A stretch of DNA of 64,000 nucleotides from Natrinema versiforme JCM 10478. Its GTDB lineage: Archaea > Halobacteriota > Halobacteria > Halobacteriales > Natrialbaceae. Position numbers and translations under genes: made by a program. Shown piece after piece: positions 7,715 through 62,745 of this stretch; the stretch's first letter is position 1, and every line of letters starts with the position of its first letter. The DNA lies in contig NZ_AOID01000051.1 of NCBI RefSeq assembly GCF_000337195.1, positions 1 through 64,000 on the forward strand, read 5' to 3'. Below the pieces are notes generated by a model. That model was not told where the DNA came from, did not search any database, and saw only the letters and a program-made list of their open reading frames with translations.

Positions 7715-8145
7715 TGGTACCCCGGGTCTACCCCGATACCGACATATAACCGTTGTGAAGTCCGGAAAACGTGTCATAAATCGCGCATGGCGTGTCGAAG
7801 CTCCCGACTGCGGCGGGTTCGATCTCGTCTCCAGTTCGATTTCCGCCTGAGACCGTGACACGGAAAACCATGCCATACCGAAGGTAATAGCGTCGAATCG
7901 GCGGTCGATCGACTCGAGCAGCGACGGGAATCGGCCCGGCCGCGCGATCGAACGAGCGCCGCGTTATACAACGCTCATATACCTGTTATATTTCCTCGCC
8001 CTCGTCGGCTCTCGCACCCGTCAACGTCATCGGTTCCGTTCGGCACGTCATCCGGCGGTACGATTCGTGCTCGAGGAACGATGAGAATATCAGTACGGAT
8101 ACTTCGCCCAAATAGTTTAAAACAGTGCACAGGAACGCTGTGTAC
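7715..8145. promoter_or_regulatory. Divergent intergenic region, potD / STAS-like gene
   Basis: This 431-bp gap holds no convincing gene. It contains the potD TATA box (7741-7751, minus strand) with a second AT-rich spot (cataaatc, about 7773). An AT-rich cluster follows at about 7963-7992 (gttatac, catatacc, gttatatt). The plus-strand box tttaaaa at 8116-8122 lies about 26 bp before the ATG of the 8146 gene. The middle cluster could be a promoter for an unseen short transcript; nothing in the sequence proves this. Confidence 0.45.
8116..8122 (+). promoter_or_regulatory. TATA box for the 8146 gene
   Basis: The sequence tttaaaa is centred about 27 bp upstream of the ATG at 8146, the spacing expected for a leaderless haloarchaeal transcript. 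This supports ATG 8146 over the in-frame GTG at 8125, which lies between the box and the expected transcription start. Confidence 0.6.
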
Positions 8146-8553
8146 ATGACTACGACAGTCCTAGAGCGGACCGAGGAGTACACGATCGAACGAGCCGACG
8201 CGCTCGGCGTGCCGATTTTCACGTACAACGAATACCTCACGGGGGAACGGCTTCGGGAGGTCGCCCGCAGATGGGAGGCAATTATCGAAGCGACGGGCGT
8301 CGAACGGTACGTCGTCAACACCGAGGCGTTCATGGCGCACGAAGAGGAGGACAAGCAGTGGCTCGGCGAGACCTGGCTGCCGAACTTGATCGACCATGGC
8401 GTCAGGGCAGGGGCCGGCGTGTACGCGGACTCCGCGATCTCGAGTCTGGATATGGGTCGCATCGAATCGACGTTGAATGCGATCGATCCCGACTTCGAAT
8501 ACCGCACGTTCGGAAGCGAAGCGGACGCGTTGGAGTGGATCGCAGAGCAGTAG
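8146..8553 (+). CDS. Small STAS/SpoIIAA-like protein
   Basis: This 135-aa soluble protein begins MTTTVLERTEEYTIERA. The alternation of short strands and helices, and the ending EYRTFGSEADALEWIAEQ, resembles the STAS/SEC14-type (SpoIIAA-like) small domain proteins common in prokaryotes, whose role is generally unclear (anti-anti-sigma-like or lipid-binding fold). That assignment is tentative. The start is set by the leaderless promoter at 8116-8122. It is monocistronic: a palindromic repeat element begins 14 bp after its stop and the next gene is convergent. Confidence 0.7.
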   Translation: MTTTVLERTEEYTIERADALGVPIFTYNEYLTGERLREVARRWEAIIEATGVERYVVNTEAFMAHEEEDKQWLGETWLPNLIDHGVRAGAGVYADSAISSLDMGRIESTLNAIDPDFEYRTFGSEADALEWIAEQ

Positions 8554-8567
8554 CGGAGACTCTTCGG

Positions 8568-8653
8568 CTATAGTAGCCACTGAAAGTCATTGCACACTTG
8601 ATCGCACGACTGCGTCACGATCAGTGTGTAAATCGTTTCAGTGGCTACTATAG
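8568..8653. repeat. Palindromic MITE-like repeat, copy A
   Basis: An 86-bp element with perfect 18-bp terminal inverted repeats (ctatagtagccactgaaa at 8568-8585 and its reverse complement at 8636-8653). Inside is a second stem: cacac (8593-8597) and tgatcg (8599-8604) pair with cgatca (8618-8623) and gtgtg (8624-8628) around a 13-base loop. The reverse complement matches the repeat at 16096-16175 over most of its length, and one end recurs exactly at 62703-62721. It lies between two convergent genes. No coding potential and no obvious target duplication are seen. Confidence 0.85.
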
Positions 8654-8681
8654 TATCGCGTTCGCTGGTCGCCTCGAGTGC

Positions 8682-15962: not shown

Positions 15963-16095
15963 TACTGGGAACAGACTACTCAGGTAGCGCTTAAATCGAT
16001 ACTGGCTCTGTATGTTCGTCACTCGCCCGAATCCGGTCGCTACCGACCGATCCGTCGACCCGGAGAGCACACCGGGGCCACCGAACCGGCGACGC

Positions 16096-16175
16096 TGTAG
16101 TAGCCACTGAAACGGGGTATACACTGATTGCGACGGAGTCGTGCGATCAGGCGTGCAATGACTGTCAGTGGCTAC
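16096..16175. repeat. Palindromic MITE-like repeat, copy B
   Basis: This element is in the opposite orientation to copy A. Ends are tgtagtagccactgaaa (16096-16112) and gtcagtggctac (16164-16175). The interior (acactgattgcgacgg, then agtcgtgcgatcag and gtgcaatgac) lines up with the reverse complement of copy A with scattered substitutions, so the interior as well as the ends is conserved. It abuts the stop codon of rnhA and lies about 130 bp upstream of the histidine kinase start. The imperfect ends suggest an older copy. Confidence 0.8.
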
Positions 16176-16176
16176 G

Positions 16177-16770
16177 CTACGCCTGATCCAGCGCTTCGTT
16201 GACGAGGCCGTCCGCGCGGTCGTTGACCTCTCGAGGAACGTACTCCAGCGTCCACTCGTCGAACGCTTGCAGGATTTCGTGGGCGGTGACCCGCTTCTCG
16301 CGGAGTTCGGGGTTGTTGGTGTCGTACTCGCCGCGGACCTGCTTGACGATGAGTTCGGAGTCACCGCGGACGTGGACCTCGTCGTAGCCGTAGTCGCGGG
16401 CGGCCTCGAGGCCCGCGATCAGCGCCTCGTACTCGGCCTGATTGTTCGTCGCCGTCCCGATGGTCTCGCCGTCCTCGGCGACGATCCCGTCGCCGGTGAC
16501 GATCACCCAGCCGATCGCGGCCGGGCCGGGGTTGCCCCGCGAGCCGCCGTCGAAGTAGACGTGTGCGCGCCCGCCGTCCTCGCGGAGCAGGGCCTCGATC
16601 TCCCGCGGCTCGGCACCCTGAATGACGACCTTGTCGTCGTAGGCGACGGCGGTCGCACCGCCCCGGCTCGCCCGCCAGCGCTCGTGGTCAGTGTTTCCCG
16701 AGTCGACGGTCACGCCCGCCGCCTCGAGTCGTTCGCGAGCCGTCTCGACGTCGCACTCGATAACCGGCAT
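16177..16770 (-). CDS. rnhA: Ribonuclease HI
   Basis: Cleaves RNA in RNA-DNA hybrids during replication and repair. The 197-aa protein has the DEDD catalytic set in VYFDGGSRGNPG (Asp74), NNQAEYEALIAGL (Glu113), HVRGDSELIVKQV (Asp137) and EVNDRADGLVNEAL (Asp187). Residues 1-65 form an extra N-terminal region containing WRASRGG, found in haloarchaeal RNase HI. Start ATG 16770 is supported by the TATA element at 16793-16801 about 27 bp away. A longer frame runs antisense through tfb, but it is a shadow. The repeat copy B starts right after the stop. Confidence 0.93.
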   Translation of the reverse strand: MPVIECDVETARERLEAAGVTVDSGNTDHERWRASRGGATAVAYDDKVVIQGAEPREIEALLREDGGRAHVYFDGGSRGNPGPAAIGWVIVTGDGIVAEDGETIGTATNNQAEYEALIAGLEAARDYGYDEVHVRGDSELIVKQVRGEYDTNNPELREKRVTAHEILQAFDEWTLEYVPREVNDRADGLVNEALDQA

Positions 16771-62702: not shown

Positions 62703-62721
62703 CGTTTCAGTGGCTACTATA
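62703..62721. repeat. Solo end of the palindromic repeat (copy C)
   Basis: cgtttcagtggctactata is identical over 19 bp to the right end of copy A (8634-8652). No matching left end occurs in the preceding 120 bp, so this is a truncated remnant or a recruited single end. Its last bases supply a TATA-like ctatac about 27 bp ahead of the SDR ATG at 62746. Confidence 0.7.
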
Positions 62722-62745
62722 CGTGGACAGTACCGAACCGTGGAC

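Follow-up and report, generated by a model that had tools for sequence, protein, structure and literature searches.

The palindrome and its relatives in the window

The window, meaning the whole stretch of 64,000 nucleotides of Natrinema versiforme DNA analysed here, contains an 86-bp palindrome at positions 8568-8653, which raises the question of whether such a sequence works for its host or moves, and, if it moves, by which enzymes. The reading developed below is that the palindrome is a copy of a MITE, very probably moved by the enzymes of larger IS630 elements, and that no host function is needed to explain it.

The 18-mer CTATAGTAGCCACTGAAA is exact at 8568-8585 on the plus strand and at 8636-8653 on the minus strand, confirming the perfect 18-bp inverted ends reported in the initial annotation. 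Two further matches with one mismatch occur in the window, at 16095 and 62705, and none is expected by chance even at three mismatches or fewer (0 in 100 shuffles). The arms of this palindrome, copy A, extend to 31 nt with 84% complementarity and lie 24 nt apart. Taken as RNA, positions 8560-8661 reach -52.3 kcal/mol on the plus strand (shuffled mean -23.6; z -9.9) and -47.4 kcal/mol on the minus strand (z -7.6). The features of the window are as follows, the minus strand for copy A denoting that its CGAT end lies at the high coordinate.

8568..8653, minus strand: copy A with its target bases, C-TA-(80-bp core)-TA-G; target bases predicted from the empty sites of other copies
8571..8650, minus strand: 80-bp transposable core of copy A, TAGTAGCC...GGCTACTA, ends at 8571-8585 and 8636-8650; length taken from the empty sites of other copies
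8569..8570, no strand: putative left duplicated target TA of copy A, from the family rule
8651..8652, no strand: putative right duplicated target TA of copy A, from the family rule
16095..16180, plus strand: copy B, with worn ends, inverted relative to copy A; family model match
62705..62722, minus strand: decayed copy with a single end and an interior beyond the model's recognition; not among the covariance-model matches

The family model matches copy A on the minus strand and copy B on the plus strand, in agreement with the earlier observation that the two share their interior in opposite orientation. Both copies listed earlier are thus members of the family, but the ends of copy B are imperfect, no inverted repeat being found in 16000-16300 at the settings used, and the site at 62705 is a lone end with a decayed interior. 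No Rfam family reaches its gathering score at either copy, the only matches in the window being two tRNAs, and the seven window proteins that were scanned include no transposase. Copy A sits between convergent genes, of which the left one (window 8125-8553, plus strand) has no Pfam match at E<=0.001 and the right one encodes an endonuclease III-like HhH-GPD protein. An RNase HI gene on the minus strand takes part of its stop codon from the right edge of copy B.

Copy number and spread

In the 4.19-Mb genome of the strain, the 15-base end core TAGTAGCCACTGAAA has 11 exact matches and 33 when up to two mismatches are allowed, against 0 and 6 for the same sequence read backwards. A covariance model built from 15 copies of this genome matches 24 distinct places in it at E<=1, 22 of which score at least 74 bits. 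More copies therefore exist than the initial annotation had listed, and the intact ones have their interior in common; with two ends at nearly constant spacing, the length of the element is almost fixed.

Beyond the strain, all 29 genus genomes searched match at E<=0.01. Across the class, where at most 15 candidates per genome were scored under strict filters, 117 of 292 genomes match at E<=1e-4, spanning 33 of 77 genera, and 175 have no match. Plasmids also carry the element: 50 of 72,556 records match at 188 places, led by Natrinema (10), Haloarcula (7), Natronorubrum (5) and Halomontanus (5), with 14 and 19 places on two N. magadii plasmids. Among 50,697 phage records there is no match. Viral carriage was also considered on the basis of a 16-base end that hits 12 viral contigs, and was rejected, the family model finding nothing at those 12 loci.

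This spread bears directly on the possibility that the two copies are unrelated intrinsic terminators. A hairpin between convergent genes, as at copy A, is what such a terminator would offer, but the same sequence of the same length recurs at dozens of sites in many genera, and we regard this explanation as scarcely credible.

Several irregular arrangements were seen during these searches. Apparent tandem arrays in two genomes (G026, G134) were dismissed, since at the four loci read the neighbouring copies are joined via a stretch with a single N and are taken as scaffold gaps. Single-N joins occur at these element copies (L129-L132) and also at an IS630 element of the strain (L178, G000:C34), so that repeats of this sort interrupt draft assemblies and pass for tandem copies. 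At two loci (L078, L079; 1501-1614) the matches measure 114 bp as against 86, and a longer variant with an insertion may exist. Another locus (L009, G000:C63) has a lone exact end at about 1498-1515; unrelated AT-rich DNA follows, and gccactgaaatgc recurs at about 1690-1702, some 185 bp on and in direct orientation. Finally, an end pair of the TAGTAGTCGTTGAAA type about 108 bp apart (L189, G003:C2, about 2349-2457) possibly represents a second, related mini-element.

Evidence for mobility

The copies read for identity, empty sites, structure and flanks were high-scoring matches, so decayed copies are under-represented among them. Identical copies occur in several genomes: eight of the 11 read in G010 are identical through all 86 bases within unrelated flanks, and sets of six in G012 and of four (of ten read) in G016 were found as well.

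Empty sites were sought by joining the element-free flanks of 31 copies from three genomes (G001, G026, G014) and comparing them with six genomes; 30 of the matched loci were read, and in these the junction could be aligned for 14 of the 31 copies. Seven of these 14 have an exact N-TA-N empty site, which reads CTAG for L220 (in four relatives), L243 (in two), L237, L240 and L245, ATAG for L241 and GTAG for L247. Since the filled copies of the last two start with ATA and GTA, the outermost base is part of the target and not of the element. Five others (L218, L219, L226, L229, L249) show four junction bases that differ from those expected at one or two positions, and L227 and L238 have a junction without a clear four-base reading. 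A target-site duplication, which the initial annotation had named as a check on mobility, is accordingly found as a duplicated TA, exact in seven and approximate in five of the alignable copies. The net gain per insertion is 82 bases, made up of the 80-base core TAGTAGCC...GGCTACTA and one TA.

The preference for CTAG is visible among 76 fetched copies, 67 of which start with CTA and 64 of which end with TAG, 56 doing both. Direct repeats of three bases outside the ends occur in 6/76, somewhat above the 1.2 expected under even base use, an excess not seen for repeats of two bases (2/76) or of four bases (0/76). In the nearest relative (G027), the site of copy A holds unrelated filler and not the element, so no clean empty site is available there.

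The element is thus short, has terminal inverted repeats and no transposase, occurs in dispersed copies with insertion polymorphism (not clean for copy A) and duplicates TA, as a MITE does. Its copy number, the identical copies in unrelated flanks, the unoccupied sites of relatives and an end and target signature shared with IS630 all support the proposal of a mobile, non-autonomous element over that of two unrelated terminators.

Genomic placement

A simple gene finder trained on the window placed 68 loci: 32 between tandem, 17 between convergent and 11 between divergent genes, one inside a gene and seven undecided at an edge. The single in-gene copy is copy B, which on reading merely abuts the RNase HI stop codon. 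Compared with 105 background gaps (59 tandem, 21 convergent, 25 divergent), neither convergent placement (17/60 copies versus 21/105 gaps, p 0.25) nor divergent placement (11/60 versus 25/105, p 0.44) is significantly biased. A terminator role was rejected on this count as well, placement at gene ends being not beyond chance.

Over the window's first 62.6 kb, there are six CTAG in 9.7 kb of intergenic DNA and eight in 52.9 kb of genic DNA, which makes the motif about four times denser between genes (p 0.013), and the choice of target by itself thus favours sites outside genes. The element has a G+C content of 47%, as against 63% in the measured flanks.

At 14 of the 68 loci (e.g. L034, L071, L083), a predicted gene enters the element by 16 bases and ends at a TGA of the element. 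An insertion into a CTAG whose TAG is a stop codon is predicted to lengthen the protein by four residues before it stops again.

Hairpin structure and covariation

The structure was assessed on 82 copies of exactly 86 bases (81 distinct), hand-chosen from best-strand matches; copies of other lengths, second matches per locus and several duplicates, whether of a copy or of a sequence, were left out. The proposed hairpin is paired in 93.2% of cells over these 82 copies, and 17 of its 33 pairs are changed on both sides. Double-change cells number 105, against a mean of 26 in shuffles that ignore kinship and at most 23 with partners slid. Both stems covary strongly; the small apical helix holds poorly, with 73.7% paired. 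In the inner stem, covariation is carried by 24 sequences at columns 31/55 and by one to three at six other pairs, and it lies partly outside the 27 positions of end similarity to IS630.

Covariation of the outer stem is expected if both ends have to suit one transposase, and end recognition accounts for that stem only. Arm-to-arm copying suffices as an explanation. Hybrid copies whose arms do not match (e.g. L221, L242, L246) argue against a strict need for pairing. It is conceivable, though we doubt it, that the hairpin itself is selected, both stems, with the portion of the inner one that extends past the IS630-like end, being kept paired across genera by compensatory changes because the fold acts in transposition or as a host RNA; a fold acting in transposition would, with the same doubt, mean an extruded or single-stranded form that is unexpected for IS630. 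If true, a selected hairpin could help to explain the abundance of the element in genomes where no IS630 transposase was found.

A structured regulatory RNA or DNA that is retained because it serves the host, for instance at 3' ends, and whose mobility is incidental or ended long ago, would accommodate the strong covariation of both stems, the conserved unpaired bases and the convergent genes around copy A. We nevertheless consider it very improbable, given that gene context shows no significant bias, that empty sites are precise and copies identical, and that 175 of the 292 class genomes do without a match.

IS630 elements as the likely mobilisers

The duplicated TA and the preference for CTAG point to the IS630 group, and CTAG is a target of IS630 itself. 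IS630 transposases were detected by PF13358 in 18 of the 29 genus genomes. Among 30 IS630 loci fetched in the genus, 18 hold both ends of an element that starts with TAGTA; 17 of these measure 1051-1055 bp and one 930 bp, all 18 lie between TAs, and 14 of them lie between CTA and TAG. The one element that was profile-checked is IS630 in both reading frames. One IS630 of this type, L178, is present in the genome of the strain, where assembly gaps lie close to its ends.

In an ungapped comparison, the GTCA end of the MITE and the consensus of the IS end that lies downstream of the transposase agree at 19 of 27 positions; when only positions 6-27 are counted, they agree at 14 of 22 (permutation p 0.00012). 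The CGAT end agrees with the same IS end at 17 of 27 positions, and at 12 of 22 over positions 6-27 (p 0.004). Against the other IS630 end, the GTCA and CGAT ends agree at 15 and 16 of 27 positions, respectively. A subterminal ATTGC.CAC is common to MITE and IS630 ends, and beyond the first eight bases the match is partial. Because the pattern used to pick the IS630 ends contained TAGTA and TTA.AA, agreement at these letters is not independent evidence, and the permutation from position 6 still includes TTA.AA. Both MITE ends are closest to the same IS630 end, which would fit an origin by inverted duplication.

Across the 292 class genomes, 65 carry the element together with IS630, 52 the element alone and 60 IS630 alone, a co-occurrence with an odds ratio of 2.4 (p 0.0004, kinship ignored). 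The class-wide IS630 survey required TA flanks, so these flanks are no evidence there. In one genome (L285, G056:C3, about 1364-2501), a 1055-bp IS630 lies inside an apparent copy of the mini-element, whose outer ends are 1137 bp apart, i.e. 1055 + 82.

From these similarities, the following mechanism is proposed. An IS630 transposase made elsewhere would recognise both TAGTAGCC... ends, act in trans to move the 80-bp core and insert it at TA, preferably within CTAG, whereby the TA would be duplicated. The palindrome itself may have arisen through inverted duplication of one IS end. The parent element, which had been left without a name in the initial annotation, can in this way be replaced by a mobiliser placed in the IS630 family through its end and target signature.

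Some genomes fit this mechanism less readily. PF13358 has no match in 11 of the 29 genus genomes, and in these NF033545 also gives nothing in nine and sub-threshold matches in two; G016, with its four identical copies, is among the nine. In the class, PF13358 likewise finds nothing in 52 of the 117 genomes that carry the element. A transposase gene between two such ends, as the initial annotation had envisaged, was looked for in G016, where 99 ends with at most one mismatch occur and 20 stretches around a part of the apparently unpaired ends were fetched. Sixteen of them have a partner 77-81 bp away and four do not (L316, L318, L323, L330). The longer end pairs seen in these stretches are combinations with neighbouring copies or lone ends, including a 761-bp pair (L315) that encloses an ORF. 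An exact-end parent in G016 was rejected, no transposon with these ends being seen in the 20 stretches, and no element with exact MITE ends and a transposase was seen among all stretches examined. In genomes with copies and no detectable IS630, either the transposase has been lost, or it is on an unsampled replicon, or the element has another mover.

Another mover is the essence of a further alternative, in which the same mobile element depends on a different, unrecognised transposase that also uses TA or CTAG, its likeness to IS630 being convergent. The many-copy genomes just described and the partial end match past the first eight bases agree with it. The TAGTA start, the TA duplication, the CTAG preference and the subterminal ATTGC.CAC shared with IS630 speak against it, as does the partial search, which met no other candidate with such ends, and we judge it unlikely. 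We retain mobilisation by IS630 enzymes as the most probable reading.

Comparison with known systems and significance

A literature search, with ISfinder and supplements outside its scope, recognised no paper describing the element, although an earlier description is possible; papers containing 12-base stretches of it are unrelated by title. The main texts of the Natrialba magadii (PMC3403918) and Natrinema J7-2 (PMC3402447) genome papers, in the portions available, do not mention MITE as a term. On this basis, the element is a new, widespread archaeal IS630-type MITE. A mini-element present in a good part of the haloarchaea thereby gains a target rule (CTAG, with duplication of TA), a family of likely mobilisers and exact boundaries, and the boundaries would let annotators name many unlabelled intergenic repeats. 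Additionally, the many-copy genomes without a detectable IS630 transposase make the persistence of such elements testable.

Haloarchaeal IS630 elements of about 1055 bp share with it the TAGTA ends, the TA flanks, the CTAG preference and a partial subterminal match. They differ in having a transposase in two reading frames and two ends that are unlike each other, whereas both MITE ends most resemble one IS630 end. REP/BIME sequences are likewise short, dispersed intergenic palindromes; a duplicated TA and ends like those of IS630 are not known from REPs. REPs measure 20-40 bp, according to PMC3733652.

The closest haloarchaeal category is the SMR (small mobile repeats) of Haloquadratum walsbyi, described in the available part of PMC3119063 as 80-110 bp long, with prominent terminal inverted repeats and without a transposase. 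That text calls the movement of small repeats in haloarchaea enigmatic and defines SMR as lacking a target duplication and as having ends without relation to known transposons. With its duplicated TA and IS630-like ends, the present element falls outside this definition, a distinction drawn from the SMR description and not from SMR sequences.

The closest working analogue is RUP (repeat unit of pneumococcus) with IS630-Spn1, by which RUP is proposed to be moved (PMC2229807, PMC3049150, in the parts available). RUP resembles the element in its length of about 100 bp, its many intergenic copies, its IS630-like ends, its TA target and a predicted fold with paired ends. It differs in being 107 bp long, AT-rich and nearly limited to one species and its near relative, whereas the haloarchaeal element has an 80-bp core and spans 33 of 77 sampled genera; the two are likened by description and not by sequence kinship.
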